The position numbers and the translations under genes were made by a program. A DNA stretch of 64,000 nt from Chitinispirillales bacterium (GTDB lineage: Bacteria; Fibrobacterota; Chitinivibrionia; Chitinivibrionales; Chitinispirillaceae), in assembly GCA_031254105.1 (NCBI GenBank), contig JAIRVB010000035.1, positions 1-64,000 of the forward strand, read 5' to 3'. The notes below the pieces were generated by a model that saw nothing but the letters and a program-made list of their open reading frames with translations, did no database searches and was not told where the DNA came from. Of the stretch, positions 6,128 to 45,098 are shown in pieces (positions within the stretch are counted from its first letter, which is position 1; every line of letters starts with the position of its first letter).

Positions 6128-6149
6128 CAGATATGCTTAAACATCTCTG

Positions 6150-6367
6150 CCGCGCCTTGAAGGCGCGCACAGCCGCAAGGCCGTCTCTGCAAGCCCCATG
6201 TTTTAACGCGGGGCGTTCCGGCGTGGATGCGTGTATACGTCAAAAACGATGTGTTGGGTATCGGCAATCCATGCGGTATTTTTACGCATGTATCCTGTCC
6301 CGCGCTAAAGTATGGGGCTATAAAGACAGCCTAAGCGGCTGTGCGTCCCTTCAATTTAAGAGGCGCT
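6150..6367. repeat. Structured repeat element, copy 1
   Basis: This is a 218-bp element between the convergent coaD and GH31 genes. Its ends pair: GCGCCT with AGGCGC, TTGAA with TTCAA, and CGCACAGCCGC with GCGGCTGTGCG. The interior holds a GTTTTAACGCGGGGCGTTCC block, GGTATCGGCAATCC, GCGGTATTTTTACGC and GGGGCTATAAAGACAGC. All of these recur in the same order and orientation at 9467-9648. The stem sequence differs between copies but pairing is kept. The right end overlaps the GH31 stop codon and last residues. It could be a structured RNA, a DNA hairpin repeat or a miniature mobile element. Confidence 0.75.
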
Positions 6368-8659
6368 CTCTTTAGACAACCCGGACAGATAATTGCGTTT
6401 GCTAAGAAGCGCAGGCTGATTGGTTGCAAACTCCACCGTGATTTTTTTCGTAATATCTGTTTCATCAATCAATACTTCCATACATTGTCTTGCGCCGGTA
6501 TAAGTTTTAATCAGATTAAGCCCCCTCTCATCAGCCCGTCCGCTTATTTCGCATTTGTCAGTTATGCCGAATATTTCAAGTGTCCAGGTGCGTTTTTGAG
6601 GTATAAGTGAACTTTCTCCTTTAACCGCACCTATAGTCACTTCCAAATATTTACCGGTAATATCCCATTTTTGTGTAAGAACGGTTTCACAAAATTTTCC
6701 TGAACGGCGCTCCTGGGTTTTGCCGTCATCCTCATAAAGAACAAATTCGCCGCTTGCTCCGGCAAAAATTTTAGCGTGAAAAGAGTGAGGGTTTTTATCA
6801 GCTTCAAGACATTGTTCCGCAGCGCAAACAATAATAGCTCCGGCGGGAGCGTAGACAGGAATAGTTTCTAATCCTCCGCTGACATACACTGCTTTGTCTC
6901 CGTCAATATATTCTCCTGTAAAAAAATTGTACCAAACGCCTTTTGGCAGCCATACATCGCGGTATGATAATTTTGTTTGAGAGTCAACTGGGGTTGTAAA
7001 CGGAGCTGCTATCAATCCGGTTCCAAAATAGTATTGATCCGGATATTCATATGCTTTATGCTCCTCAGGATGCTCAATGTACATATGTCTGACAAAAGGG
7101 ATAGATTCTTTTTCGGTAATACGGCAGCATGAGTAAATGTAAGGGATAAGAGAGTGACGCAGCCGCATAGAGTCGCGTATCAATCCCAAAGTAGTTTTGT
7201 CATAAACAAACGGCCTGCGGTCACGCAGGGGATCATTTGAACTGTGTATACGCAAAATAGGGCTGAATACTCCAAACTGTATCCACCGAACGTAAAGCTC
7301 AGGGTCTTCCTGTCCTTTATAATGTCCGCCAATATCATGGCTCCAGTAGCAGAATCCAACGTTTCCCGCTGCCGCGGTAAAAAATGGCTGAAACGCGAGA
7401 GTCTCCCATGTCACATGAGTATCTCCCGAAAACCCTATCGGATAACGGTGCGCCCCCGGGCCGCAGCAGCGTGAAAGTATAAGCGGACGTTTACCATTAC
7501 GGCTCATGTCCAAAAAATGCAGATGATTGAGCTGATAGAGAGGATCAAGCCCCTCAATAGAAGACTCTGTTCCTTGCTGCCAGTCGATCCACCAGAAATC
7601 AACGCCCTGTTTTTCAAGCGGATGATGCAGATGTTCAAAATATCCGGCCATGAACCTTGAATCACCAGTGTCAAACGGAACAGCTTTTTTGTGTTGAGGA
7701 TCAATTCCCATATGTTCAGCCATCAATTTATATGCGTTTTCGTGAGGGTGTATACCATCGTTTGGGTGGAGATTGAGACTTGAGCGGATTCCTTTTTTGT
7801 GAAGGAAATCAAAAAAAACGGATGGGTCGGGAAACAGATCTTTGTTCCATGTATAACCTGTCCAGCCCTTGTGGTGAGGGTTATCTACAATGTGCCAGTC
7901 CATATCCACCACGCACACCGAGAGAGGTATGCGGTGTTTTTCAAAATCCTCCACAAGTGTGGTAAGCTCTTTTTGCGTATAAGCCCAATACCTGCTCCAC
8001 CAATTGCCAAAAGCGAAACGGGGCGGCAGGGCTGCGGGACCGCTCAGAGCGCAAAACTCTTTCAGACAGCCTTTATAGTCTGCACCGTATCCAAAAAAAT
8101 ACAGATCAGTAGAGCTGCCATTACGCGGACATGGCCAAAAGTTTTCATCGTAAACAAGAGAACTTGAATCATCCAATACTGTCCAACCGCTTTTTGAAAG
8201 AAGACCATGAGGAAGCGCGGCAGATCCGTTAATTCTATCAAGTGTTCTGACCGTACCGCCAAGATTGAGCGCGTCAAAATCTCCATAAAGCCAACGATTT
8301 TTCCTTTTCAGTAAGTCAATGTACAGAATATCACGGCTGAATGGAGAATATGTGTCATTACAAACCAAATGCAAATTGCCGGTGATAATCTCCAAGCGGC
8401 TCCCTGAACGCCACACACGATATGATGTGGCCGGGCGGCGGCGGAACCACGCAAGCTGGGAAGCGCGATCTTCGAAGCATCCCGAACCGTTATGTTCGAT
8501 GCGCAAAACTGTTTTTGACAATACAGTAACGCGTACGTTATTTGAAATCACCACTGCGTTGGGATTTGCGACCGGATCGCTGTTAAAATGAAATCGTGAA
8601 AGTTTATGAGAATGTGAACTTTGCGTATCGGAGGGTTCGGAAGTCTGAGATGTAATCAT
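6356..8659 (-). CDS. Glycoside hydrolase family 31 alpha-glucosidase-like protein
   Basis: A 767-residue GH31 enzyme, probably cleaving alpha-glucosidic bonds of oligosaccharides or glycogen. The (beta/alpha)8 barrel shows VVDMDWH near the second strand and the nucleophile Asp in WWIDWQQG (near 357). The acid/base Asp lies in GFSGDTHVTWETL (near 412). The C-terminal half has the usual beta-sandwich domains (PVYAPAGAIIV, VLYEDDG). WQQG in place of WMNE marks a GH31 subgroup, so the exact substrate is uncertain. There is no signal peptide, so it is likely cytoplasmic. The ATG has AGGGA about 8 bases upstream. The last residues and stop fall inside the first structured repeat. Confidence 0.88.
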   Translation of the reverse strand: MITSQTSEPSDTQSSHSHKLSRFHFNSDPVANPNAVVISNNVRVTVLSKTVLRIEHNGSGCFEDRASQLAWFRRRPATSYRVWRSGSRLEIITGNLHLVCNDTYSPFSRDILYIDLLKRKNRWLYGDFDALNLGGTVRTLDRINGSAALPHGLLSKSGWTVLDDSSSLVYDENFWPCPRNGSSTDLYFFGYGADYKGCLKEFCALSGPAALPPRFAFGNWWSRYWAYTQKELTTLVEDFEKHRIPLSVCVVDMDWHIVDNPHHKGWTGYTWNKDLFPDPSVFFDFLHKKGIRSSLNLHPNDGIHPHENAYKLMAEHMGIDPQHKKAVPFDTGDSRFMAGYFEHLHHPLEKQGVDFWWIDWQQGTESSIEGLDPLYQLNHLHFLDMSRNGKRPLILSRCCGPGAHRYPIGFSGDTHVTWETLAFQPFFTAAAGNVGFCYWSHDIGGHYKGQEDPELYVRWIQFGVFSPILRIHSSNDPLRDRRPFVYDKTTLGLIRDSMRLRHSLIPYIYSCCRITEKESIPFVRHMYIEHPEEHKAYEYPDQYYFGTGLIAAPFTTPVDSQTKLSYRDVWLPKGVWYNFFTGEYIDGDKAVYVSGGLETIPVYAPAGAIIVCAAEQCLEADKNPHSFHAKIFAGASGEFVLYEDDGKTQERRSGKFCETVLTQKWDITGKYLEVTIGAVKGESSLIPQKRTWTLEIFGITDKCEISGRADERGLNLIKTYTGARQCMEVLIDETDITKKITVEFATNQPALLSKRNYLSGLSKESAS

Positions 8660-8688
8660 ATGATAGTCCCTGCTCTCGTGTAATGATA

Positions 8689-8796
8689 ATTCAACTTCAA
8701 AATAGATGTCTGAGTGCAGAAATAAAAGATCCGATCACCTCATTTCTGTATTTGGACATCTATTTCTGCATTAATAATATCTTTTTCAAGTTGAAT
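8689..8796. repeat. Dispersed palindromic repeat, class B copy
   Basis: A 108-bp nested inverted repeat between the divergent GH31 and hsp20 genes. The outer arms are ATTCAACTT and AAGTTGAAT, the next pair ATAGATGTC and GACATCTAT, and TGCAGAAATA pairs with TATTTCTGCA. The GCAGAAATA core links it to the copies at 658, 25169 and 37371. A 91-codon open frame across it has no ribosome-binding site and is not credible as a gene. The rest of the 8660-9014 gap shows nothing else I can name. Confidence 0.6.
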
Positions 8797-9014
8797 GGCT
8801 ATATCTGCATCTTTAAAGAGGCATATAAAAATATAGATCATTTCTTTGTTAAAATGAAACAGCGTGAAACAGTAATTGTTTCACTTATAAACGACGCTGT
8901 TTCTGATTTTGGCAATAACCATGGTCAAAAGACTTTGGCATGGCTGTTGCATAATTAGGCCGGTGAAGAAGGATGTTCAAAAATCAACTAACTAACAATA
9001 AAAGGAGGTTTCTT

Positions 9015-9434
9015 ATGAGTGCTTTTGTTATGCGTAATTATCCGGCTGCTATGTTGTCAAACTGGCTCGATGGTGTATTAGACAACCAGCTGCTCAATGC
9101 GGACCGGGAGATGCAGCGTGTAATGCAGCCAAGGATGGACTTTTCCGAAGAGGATGCTCATTATCTTATCAAGGCTGATGTTCCCGGACTCAGCAAAGAG
9201 GATATAAACATTACAGTAGAGAATGGAATTATCAAAATCGAAGGTGAAAGCAAAGAGGAGAGAAAAGGCAAATACCATCACGTTGAACGCCTCTATGGCC
9301 GCTTTTCAAGAAGTTTTTCGCTGCCGGATGAGGTTGACGCAGGAAAAATTGAAGCTAAAGTAAACAAAGGCGTTCTTGAATTGAAATTGCCTAAGACGGA
9401 GAAGACTAAGGCGATTGAAATTAAAGTTTGTTAA
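9015..9434 (+). CDS. Small heat shock protein, Hsp20/alpha-crystallin family
   Basis: A 139-residue ATP-independent holdase that binds unfolding proteins in the cytoplasm. The alpha-crystallin domain covers about residues 45-139: DAHYLIKADVPGLSKEDI, the ENGIIKIEGE strand, and GVLELKLPK near the C-terminus. The ATG at 9015 follows a strong AAAGGAGG site at a good distance. An upstream in-frame extension of 14 codons lacks any such site. The C-terminal KAIEIKVC replaces the usual IxI tail motif by IEIKV. It is convergent with the beta-lactamase-like gene, and structured element copy 2 lies between them. I see no CIRCE element upstream. Confidence 0.93.
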   Translation: MSAFVMRNYPAAMLSNWLDGVLDNQLLNADREMQRVMQPRMDFSEEDAHYLIKADVPGLSKEDINITVENGIIKIEGESKEERKGKYHHVERLYGRFSRSFSLPDEVDAGKIEAKVNKGVLELKLPKTEKTKAIEIKVC

Positions 9435-9466
9435 TGCCAAAAGTCAATTAATTCAGTTAAATCTTT

Positions 9467-9648
9467 CCGCGCCCTGAATGGGCGCACTGCCGAAAGGGCG
9501 GTCTTCGCAGCCCCGCGTTTGAACGCGGGGCGTTCCGGCGGGATGCATACATCCGGCATTGTGCTTTGGGGATCGGTAATCCGCACGGTATTTTTGCGCA
9601 TGGGGCTATAGAGACAGCTTTTCGGCAGTGCGCCCCTTCAGGGCGCGG
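9467..9648. repeat. Structured repeat element, copy 2
   Basis: This 182-bp copy starts with CCGCGCCCTGAA and ends with TTCAGGGCGCGG (12 perfect pairs). After one mismatch it continues with GGGCGCACTGCCGAAA against TTTCGGCAGTGCGCCC (16 perfect pairs). Inside are a hairpin CCCCGCG-TTTGAA-CGCGGGG, then GGGATCGGTAATCC, CGGTATTTTTGCGC and GGGGCTATAGAGACAGC. AGCCCC can also pair with GGGGCT, and GTCT with AGAC, giving a multi-branch fold. It lies between convergent hsp20 and the beta-lactamase-like gene. Compared with copy 1, two stem pairs change compensatorily (T-A to A-T, A-T to C-G). Confidence 0.8.
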
Positions 9649-9673
9649 AGAAATATTGTGCGTGAATACTTGG

Positions 9674-21827: not shown

Positions 21828-22652
21828 ACAACCTCCTTTTGATTAGTGAAAATATTAGGGCGTGTTGCCGCTGCCCCTGCCAAAACCGCCCGTTTTTTGG
21901 CTAATTTTCCACCATGCTTCCTGAATTTCCTTTGCGATACAGTAAGTATTACTGCGGAAATTTGCCTGGCCTGGCAAACAATCAGCTCAAAAACCGGACA
22001 ATTCGGGTAGCGGCAATACGCCCTGAACCTGTCAGGTTTATAATATTGTTTGTTGTTGAAAAGATTAAATTTTCCATAAGATTTTCTCCGCGTCCCTTCA
22101 AAGGGACACGGAGAGGATAGAGCGGAAGTTGTCCGATTGTGTGAAGTTTTAATAGCGGACAATTTTAAAATTATTAATGGAATAAGCTGACGCTTCGCGC
22201 GCTTTTTTAACGCGAAATACAAAATTGTATTGTAGAAAAAACCAGTTATTAAACGCTTATAAAATGGGGGGGGGGGGGGTAAAGCATTGATTTATAAGGA
22301 GATACAGAAGGTGACCTAAAGTGCTTTGTCAGCACAAGAGCGCGCAATCCAGATTCATTTGTCAACCGTTGAGCAAACCCGCGTATTTTCAGAGATGACG
22401 CATCCATAAGATAATTTGATTCTTATAATGTAATTAATTGATACCGGAAATTATACCTTGTATAATATATCTAACAATCAAAATAATTTGTTTTCGGACA
22501 AAGCGCAATAGTTAACGCGAAAAAAGAACCTCGTTTACCTCGGTGAAGTCAATAATTCGTATACTATTCAGTGAACGGTTTTTCCGCTTTTGGGGAGTAC
22601 GGCTGCGGAATTTTGGCCGTCTTCTCTTAAGGGCACATACTATATTTTTGAT
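21828..22652. other. 825-bp gene-poor stretch with hairpin and G14 tract
   Basis: No convincing gene is visible here. A strong hairpin at about 22087-22114 pairs CTCCGCGTCCCTT with AAGGGACACGGAG. A run of 14 G residues lies at 22266-22279. Open frames in this stretch have no ribosome-binding site and read like translated repeats. The G run is an obvious place for slippage or an assembly error. Confidence 0.6.
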
Positions 22653-30178: not shown

Positions 30179-30298
30179 GCAAATTACTAATTTACAATGT
30201 ACAAATAAAACATTAAAATCGAAAACAAATGTCAAATAAAATTCCTGTTCCATAAATTGGTTTTATTTGTAATTTGTACATTATAAACTGTAATTTGC
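30179..30298. repeat. Dispersed palindromic repeat, class A copy
   Basis: A 120-bp imperfect palindrome with arms GCAAATTAC...TTTACAATGTACAAATAAAA and TTTTATTTGTAATTTGTACA...GTAATTTGC. It lies between two convergent genes. Its right arm supplies the last codons and TAA of the HAD gene (30281). Related copies are at 31115, 31557, 33173 and 63131, with single arms at 40048 and 42541. Confidence 0.75.
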
Positions 30299-31114: not shown

Positions 31115-31233
31115 GAAATTACAATGTTTAATGTATAATGTACAAATAAAAGAGGAACAAGATTTGGATTTAATCAAACATTCGTTCTTATTTTCTGTTT
31201 TTATTTGTAATTTGTACAGGTACATTGTAATTT
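31115..31233. repeat. Dispersed palindromic repeat, class A copy
   Basis: The arms AAATTACAATG...ATAATGTACAAATAAAA and TTTTATTTGTAATTTGTACA...TACATTGTAATTT enclose about 45 bp of unrelated core. It occupies the divergent gap between the HAD gene and the small gene at 31276, directly upstream of the HAD start. Confidence 0.7.
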
Positions 31234-31556: not shown

Positions 31557-31651
31557 TACAAATTACAATGTACAATGTGTAAATAAAACAGAAACAGAAT
31601 CAGGATTTATTCAGATAATTGCTTTTATTTGTAATTTGTACATTGTAATTT
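31557..31651. repeat. Dispersed palindromic repeat, class A copy
   Basis: ACAAATTACAATGTACAATG and GTAAATAAAAC on the left mirror GCTTTTATTTGTAATTTGTA and CATTGTAATTT on the right. It sits between the stop codons of two convergent genes (31542 and 31657), the same position as the copy at 30179. Confidence 0.75.
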
Positions 31652-31656
31652 GATAG

Positions 31657-33172: not shown

Positions 33173-33255
33173 ACAAATTACAATGTACAAATAAAACCAA
33201 TTCACGGAAGATCTGAATTAAATCAGACTGGTTTTATCTGTACATTGTAATTTGC
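33173..33255. repeat. Dispersed palindromic repeat, class A copy
   Basis: ACAAATTACAATGTACAAAT followed by AAAACCA mirrors TGGTTTTATCTGTACATTGTAATTTG with a core that includes AGATCT. It is the shortest complete copy (83 bp), in the gap between the sigma gene and the Trm112-like gene. Confidence 0.7.
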
Positions 33256-44701: not shown

Positions 44702-44724
44702 ACGCTAACGCACGCATCTTTTTT

Positions 44725-45000
44725 ACGATTTTGTTGAGGTCAACAAAATCGCAGATTTGTCATGACCACTTGTTTTTCAAATAATAATCGCTGTCTCATG
44801 TTTGCCTCTGCGATTTTGTTGACCTCAACAAAATCGTAAATTTTTCATGATTATTTTTCCAAACAATAATTACTGTTCCATGTTTGCCTCTGTGATTTTG
44901 TTGACCTTAACAAAATCGTAAATTTTTCAAGACTATTTTTTCAAACAATATTTGTTGTTTTATTTTTGTCTCTACGATTTTGTTGACCTCAACAAAATCG
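44725..45000. repeat. Array of four 26-bp palindromes in an 82-85 bp tandem repeat
   Basis: CGATTTTGTTGA-NN-TCAACAAAATCG occurs at 44726-44751, 44811-44836, 44893-44918 and 44975-45000. The arms are perfect 12-mers in copies 1, 2 and 4; copy 3 has two changes. The DNA between them is also related (CATGACCACTTGTTTTTCAA, ATGTTTGCCTCTG), so this is a tandem repeat, not a CRISPR. The same palindrome is part of dinD (45746-45771) and recurs at 46326-46351. The array lies between tadA and the 3' end of dinD, so in the dinD transcript it would form successive hairpins. Confidence 0.9.
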
Positions 45001-45098
45001 TAGATATGTCGTAACTGCCTTGCTTTGCAAACAGTAATCACTGTCCTCCTTGGCCGCTTATAAAAATATCTTAAATCTCTATAAAAACATATGTTAAG

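Follow-up and report, generated by a model that had tools for sequence, protein, structure and literature searches.

REPIN-like three-hairpin elements in a Chitinispirillales genome and their probable link to subclass-1.2 Y1 transposases

Introduction

Two gaps between genes in a stretch of DNA from a Chitinispirillales bacterium (assembly GCA_031254105.1, contig JAIRVB010000035.1, positions 1 to 64,000; "the window" hereafter means this whole stretch) each hold a large stem-loop element, and the question that they raise is what kind of element this is. A first-pass annotation made from the letters alone had placed the two elements at 6150-6367 and 9467-9648 and had left three readings: a new structured RNA, a dual-direction transcript-end element or a non-autonomous mobile element. 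Here we find that both sites belong to a dispersed family whose small hairpins are kept through paired changes and which spread as a unit. We propose that each site is probably a decayed copy of a non-autonomous mobile DNA element, REPIN-like in build, that a subclass-1.2 Y1 (HUH) transposase mobilised in trans.

Results

The window sites belong to a dispersed family

Alignment of the two sites (copies 1 and 2) recovered common blocks in the same order, with a mean column identity of 78%, and folding recovered a long closing stem in each (35 nt, 91% in copy 1; 20 nt, 90% in copy 2), so that the first description of their layout stands. Relative to shuffled sequence the folds reached z = -11.3 (copy 1) and z = -8.4 (copy 2), and no shuffle equalled either.

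Only two copies had been seen at first; the host genome (G000; 3.68 Mb, 56 contigs) holds many more. A DNA search returned 58 matching pieces, or 50 with the arm alone as query, and a profile search of the fetched regions placed arms at at least 35 separate loci. A complete copy is about 200-280 bp long and consists of an arm, a core and a second arm inverted relative to the first. Each arm carries three small GC-rich hairpins, H1 (CGCGCCCTGAAGGGGCGC), H2 (ACAGCCG..GGCTGT) and H3 (CCCCGTGTTTYAACGCGGGG), in that order; between H2 and H3 is a short conserved linker whose last letters are mostly ATAA or ATAG. There are at least two types of core: type A, which is that of the window copies and occurs in nine copies, and others with GGGCGTTGCGCGCAACGCCC or similar.

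The small hairpins, but not the long stem, are kept by paired changes

The small hairpins within the arms are kept through paired changes. When all within-arm column pairs were scanned with no structure supplied, the pairs of H1, H2 and H3 ranked at the top. Counted over 47 arms, the three hairpins were paired in 85.6% of cells; double-change cells numbered 64, against 21.3 +/- 3.8 after shuffling, and the covariation score was 0.293, compared with 0.189 +/- 0.009 for shuffled arms and 0.171 for the best slid control.

The long closing stem behaved differently. The first-pass annotation had described it as compensated, because only two copies were compared, and had named a lack of covariation in further copies as the result that would undo the claim. 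The local hairpins withstand this test; the long stem fails it. Two arms from one copy share 65.8% identity, against 65.3% for arms from different copies (permutation p = 0.28), and covariation in the long stem is not above that obtained by re-pairing arms among copies (p = 0.14-0.21), whereas in those same copies 0 of 1000 shuffles reach the covariation observed for the local hairpins. Compensation of the long stem is thus not a property of the family.

Left and right arms can be told apart. With the core used to orient the type-A copies, H3 closes its loop with T-A in 7/7 left arms and with C-G in 7/7 right arms, and copy 1 follows this rule; were sides assigned at random to the 14 arms, such a split would have a chance of 1/3,432. 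This consistent difference means that the element has distinct left and right ends and spread as one unit.

The copies look old and lie mostly between genes, with no sign of an RNA element

Arm identity between copies is 88% for the best pair with a median of 68%, and no two copies are nearly identical; because the copies are so diverged, the family looks old and is probably inactive in the host genome. Decaying copies lose hairpins or whole halves freely. One at C4:2236 has collapsed to H1-H2-H3-H2'-H1', and a relative in the window has neither H2, H3 nor core (Table 1). Such collapsed forms are what one would expect if the hairpins of the two arms, being alike, had allowed the DNA between them to be deleted.

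Of 32 classified copies, 30 lie in gaps between open reading frames (ORFs), and the two ORFs that hold the others are probably spurious. Both window copies do sit at gene ends in convergent gaps, as first noted, but this does not extend to the family, which has 20 copies in tandem, 8 in convergent and 2 in divergent gaps. Repetitive extragenic palindromic (REP) sequences avoid divergent gaps (Di Nocera et al. 2013, PMC3733652), and the few copies found in such gaps here follow the same pattern.

Most copies are downstream of genes, which, with the very stable folds of both window copies, would suit a new structured-RNA or 3'-end (terminator, mRNA-stability) family kept for RNA function. We regard this reading as highly improbable. 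Mismatches in the stems are A-C in 66 cases and G-U in 56 (p = 0.42), and this absence of a G-U bias speaks against RNA because G-U pairs should be tolerated where selection acts on an RNA strand; it is what is expected for a DNA element. The first pass had named no RNA that fits, and indeed no Rfam 15 family reaches its gathering score for either copy. The best weak match overlapping a copy, Acido-Lenti-1 (RF01687), scores 20.4 bits against a gathering score of 37; one GC-rich hairpin with GGCTA after it is similar to H3 and the linker, but the rest of the element is unrelated. No site resembling an intrinsic terminator (a GC-rich hairpin followed by a T run) lies inside 6147-6368 or 9464-9651, and the free loss of hairpins or halves also tells against an RNA function. 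We rejected a structured RNA on the Rfam and G-U results, and a bidirectional terminator on the lack of T-run sites and the mostly non-convergent setting. Of the three original options the mobile element gained ground, through the dispersed copies, the fixed left and right ends, the likeness to modules flanking Y1 transposases described below, and the finding that other genera have only related hairpin modules.

Relatives are confined to close genomes

We searched 168 genomes of the phylum with a covariance model of the arm (R1). Matches were found in the host genome and in a congener or sister species (G001), with at least 31 in each, and in two genomes of the same family, once in G005 and twice in G015; the range is restricted to these four. 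The repeated unit in the sister species is the solo arm, not the doublet. It occurs there in a three-hairpin form whose H2 is fully rebuilt (CGCGGC..GCCGCG) and in a two-hairpin form, H3-linker-H1 (for example CCCCGGGTTGAAACCCGGGGCTACAAATATTGCACCCCTCCGGGGTGC). An exact motif scan gave no match in public genomes and one in viral contigs, which is inside coding DNA and looks like chance. No longer, autonomous copy with a gene between the same arms was found among the single-arm loci.

About ten copies in the host genome have matching outer sequences ending TTATYCCMAATT on one or both sides, at a fixed place relative to H1. Extra AT-rich outer sequences (TTATCCCCAATTGTCC...GGACAATTG / AATGGAAAATTGGGGATAA) flank the copies at L032, L047, L050, L052, L053, L054, L090, L092 and L094, and the outer sequences of this subset may mark where a longer form really ends. 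On that footing the element could be a miniature inverted-repeat transposable element (MITE) of a classical DDE insertion sequence, with AT-rich ends (TTATCCCCAATT...) and the arms as internal cargo. We consider this unlikely. Many copies, both window copies included, have no recognisable outer part, the sister species repeats the arm alone as its unit, and no transposase with these outer ends was seen. Inspection of the flanks by eye revealed no target-site duplication, although the ends of decayed copies are uncertain.

Related modules flank subclass-1.2 Y1 transposase genes

The R1 match in G005 from the search of the phylum (E=9e-7) lies 177 bases from a match to the Y1 transposase family (PF01797), at a locus where several modules flank the gene on either side, inverted relative to each other. 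A frameshifted Y1 gene in the host genome (G000:C19:22688) is adjoined by a two-hairpin module (E = 1.4e-7). The subclass-1.2 loci with R1 matches are L108 and L058. Each of the 13 short Y1 proteins aligned reads Y-I--Q--HH, in keeping with the Y---Q--HH motif that marks TnpA_Y1 subclass 1.2 (Quentin et al. 2018, PMC6006769). Members of this subclass are reported to occur in few copies and as a rule to lack terminal structures of the IS200 type, and the same paper assigns no repeat family to them (PMC6006769).

We then compared Y1 loci with controls. GC-rich hairpins within 250 bp stood on both sides of the gene at 7/16 Y1 loci of the same family versus 1/155 control ORFs (Fisher p = 1.2e-7). 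A wider survey took in named genomes of Bacteroidetes, Planctomycetes, Verrucomicrobia, Acidobacteria, Fibrobacteres and others, from which 74 of the 80 proteins fetched carried the subclass-1.2 signature. Hairpins flanked the gene on both sides at 29/75 of these loci versus 2/142 control window pairs (p = 1.5e-13). Both enrichments are somewhat overstated, as the controls include coding DNA, which is probably poorer in hairpins than intergenic DNA. Inverted double-hairpin modules occur at some distant loci, for example in the Fibrobacteres metagenome-assembled genome fen_1185 (L246) and in Haloferula (L286). R1 hardly matches distant subclass-1.2 loci, and the likeness there is one of architecture, not of sequence. 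A search for dispersed R1 matches in seven named genomes with subclass-1.2-like genes gave one weak match only; the model therefore does not reach other phyla.

Several observations weigh against a transposase of this subclass as the mover, in addition to the composition of the controls. No Y1 gene was found flanked by the exact three-hairpin arm of the host species; H2 is missing from the modules beside Y1 genes, and another repeat stands around the intact subclass-1.2 gene of the host genome (C53:39418). Within 200 kb of control DNA, R1 also matches two dispersed places in G005 away from Y1 genes and, weakly, two in the host genome, so that proximity to Y1 alone is modest evidence. The diverged copies give no sign of recent movement, and neither an empty site nor excision could be demonstrated. 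The sister GH31 orthologue has other neighbours, and synteny with the sister species is kept at neither the GH31 nor the HSP20 neighbourhood, which leaves a comparison of orthologous sites uninformative.

The arms were considered as neighbours of the intact Y1 genes of the host genome and rejected, as other repeats stand there. At C53 these belong to a different family of hairpin units of about 99 bp (L057 1300-1380 and 1990-2510), with a tandem array on one side of the intact Y1 gene and one unit on the other.

Parts of the family in the window and other repeats

The features of the family within the window are collected in Table 1. Copy 1 lies between a gene for a cytidylyltransferase-like protein (CTP_transf_like, plus strand) and a GH31 glycosidase gene (minus strand); its right end has decayed and extends across the GH31 stop codon (6356-6358). 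Copy 2 lies between an HSP20 gene (plus strand) and a gene for a beta-lactamase-family protein (minus strand); H2' and H1' are intact, and most of the right H3 and part of the core are gone.

Table 1. Parts of the three-hairpin family in the window
Feature	Position	Strand	Support or remark
Copy 1, left arm	6147-6213	+	aligned with 46 other arms; R1 match E=2.2e-14
Copy 1, left-arm hairpins	H1 6152-6168; H2 about 6169-6184; linker; H3 6194-6213	+	
Copy 1, core, type A, blocks GTTCCGGCG, ATCGGCAATCC, CGGTATTTTTACGCATG	6214-6298	+	common to other type-A copies
Copy 1, right arm, inverted	6299-6367	-	R1 match 6298-6366, minus strand, E=2.7e-9
Copy 1, right-arm parts	H3' 6299-6317; linker; H2' 6326-6342; decayed H1' 6343-6367	-	
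Copy 2, left arm (H1, H2, H3)	9464-9530	+	R1 match E=1.4e-17
Copy 2, core, type A, shortened	9531-9598	+	24-column and 5-column gaps relative to copy 1
Copy 2, right arm, inverted	9599-9651	-	R1 match 9581-9651, minus strand, E=4.5e-13; nhmmer 9599-9651
Collapsed relative, lone H1 hairpin (CTCCGTGTCCCTTTGAAGGGACGCGGAG) inside AT-rich outer sequences	22068-22164	-	DNA match E=2.8e-15

Another inverted-repeat element (TTCAACTTCAAAATAGATGTC...CAAGTTGAAT) occupies 8689-8796, just upstream of the GH31 gene, and pieces of it recur near three-hairpin copies at L035, L047, L052 and L092. A further repeat (GACTGTGTCAAAAGTA...TTGACAAATA) at L055 (about 1340-1480) and L095 (about 2080-2240) adjoins or lies inside three-hairpin copies, which suggests nested insertions. 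The window also contains four near-identical palindromic units of 32-34 nt (TACGATTTTGTTGAGGTCAACAAAATCG) spaced by about 82 bp at 44722-45004, and a second dispersed, AT-rich and MITE-like inverted-repeat family (CAAATTACAATGTACAAATAAAA...TTTGTACATTGTAATTTG) at 30188-30287, 31132-31218, 31559-31652 and 33174-33254.

Discussion

The closest known counterparts of these elements are REPINs (Bertels and Rainey 2011, PMC3116915), which likewise have two inverted palindromic ends around a spacer, lie dispersed between genes, and spread as a non-autonomous unit tied to a Y1 HUH transposase. Here, too, inverted arms enclose a core, left and right ends are distinct in the type-A arms (7/7 left, 7/7 right), and repetition is extragenic and genome-wide. 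The differences are that each end has three hairpins rather than one, that conservation is low, and that copies are fewer (at least 35 loci, whereas REPINs typically number in the hundreds). The unpaired GTAG at the hairpin foot that marks the GTAG REP superfamily is missing from the host species (0/46 arms), and the transposase probably linked to the element belongs to subclass 1.2 (Y---Q--HH), unlike the REP-associated tyrosine transposase (RAYT; Y---NP) of REPINs. As neither a GTAG foot nor a RAYT partner was found when looked for, the element would work like a REPIN but is by membership neither a classical REPIN nor a GTAG REP. Nor is it an IS200/IS605 derivative of the PATE-like kind, whose subterminal hairpins are on the same strand at both ends, since the arms here are inverted.

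The GTAG-REPs and terminal inverted repeats (TIRs) of REPtrons and TIRtrons (PMC3733652) are similar in that repeated hairpins flank tyrosine transposase genes, that some are double palindromes, and that they are mostly downstream of genes. The two-hairpin modules of G001 and G015 add to the likeness, as they often have GTAG at the foot of H3 (8/20 related modules). Those repeats, however, belong to RAYT-type proteins, whereas the modules described here flank subclass-1.2 genes and consist of two or three separate hairpins. The module-flanked proteins agree with subclass 1.2 as described (PMC6006769) in carrying Y---Q--HH, in their length of about 150 aa and in their low copy number, but hairpins on both sides are common at the loci studied here, unlike in that description.

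GTAG is the guide of RAYT enzymes, and its presence in these relatives raises the alternative that the mover of an element of this kind was a class-2 RAYT (TnpA-REP), the type of enzyme that serves classical REPINs. The host genome does have a Y1 gene with the Y---NP motif (C27:34344). Its coding sequence contains an in-frame REP-like palindromic insertion (GTAGGGGCGACC...GGTCGCCCCTAC; L059 1117-1788), as described for TnpA-REP subclass 2.4. This REP-like sequence is unlike the arms, R1 has no match at the locus, and the arms of the host species are free of GTAG, all of which makes a RAYT a quite improbable mover.

We therefore favour a subclass-1.2 Y1 transposase acting in trans. The proposed steps extend from IS200/IS605 and TnpA-REP systems, where cutting and rejoining of strands by Y1 enzymes is established. 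An arm would become single-stranded, for example on the lagging-strand template, and its hairpins would fold; the transposase would recognise a hairpin together with the linker and, by cutting and rejoining single-stranded DNA, would copy or move the element into intergenic DNA. The transposase gene would later have been lost. The cognate gene in the host genome is probably the frameshifted remnant at C19:22688, and therefore the family has probably ceased to move in this genome.

No repeat or function has so far been known for subclass-1.2 Y1 transposases. We see about even chances that these enzymes and their inverted flanking hairpin modules form a transposase-repeat partnership of their own across many phyla, with the modules amplified singly or as doublets in some lineages. 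Solo modules would then be the amplified form in the sister species; in the host species it would be a REPIN-like doublet that has a core and has gained a third hairpin. RAYT transposases are credited with REPs and REPINs, which rank among the most abundant small repeats in bacteria. Should the partnership be real, an IS200-like enzyme would have been tamed into a repeat-spreading partner more than once, here in a second Y1 group and with multi-hairpin ends, and subclass 1.2, which was given no role when described in 2018, would gain testable substrates. With doublets in the host species and solo arms in its sister, the step from a solo REP to a doublet could be compared directly.

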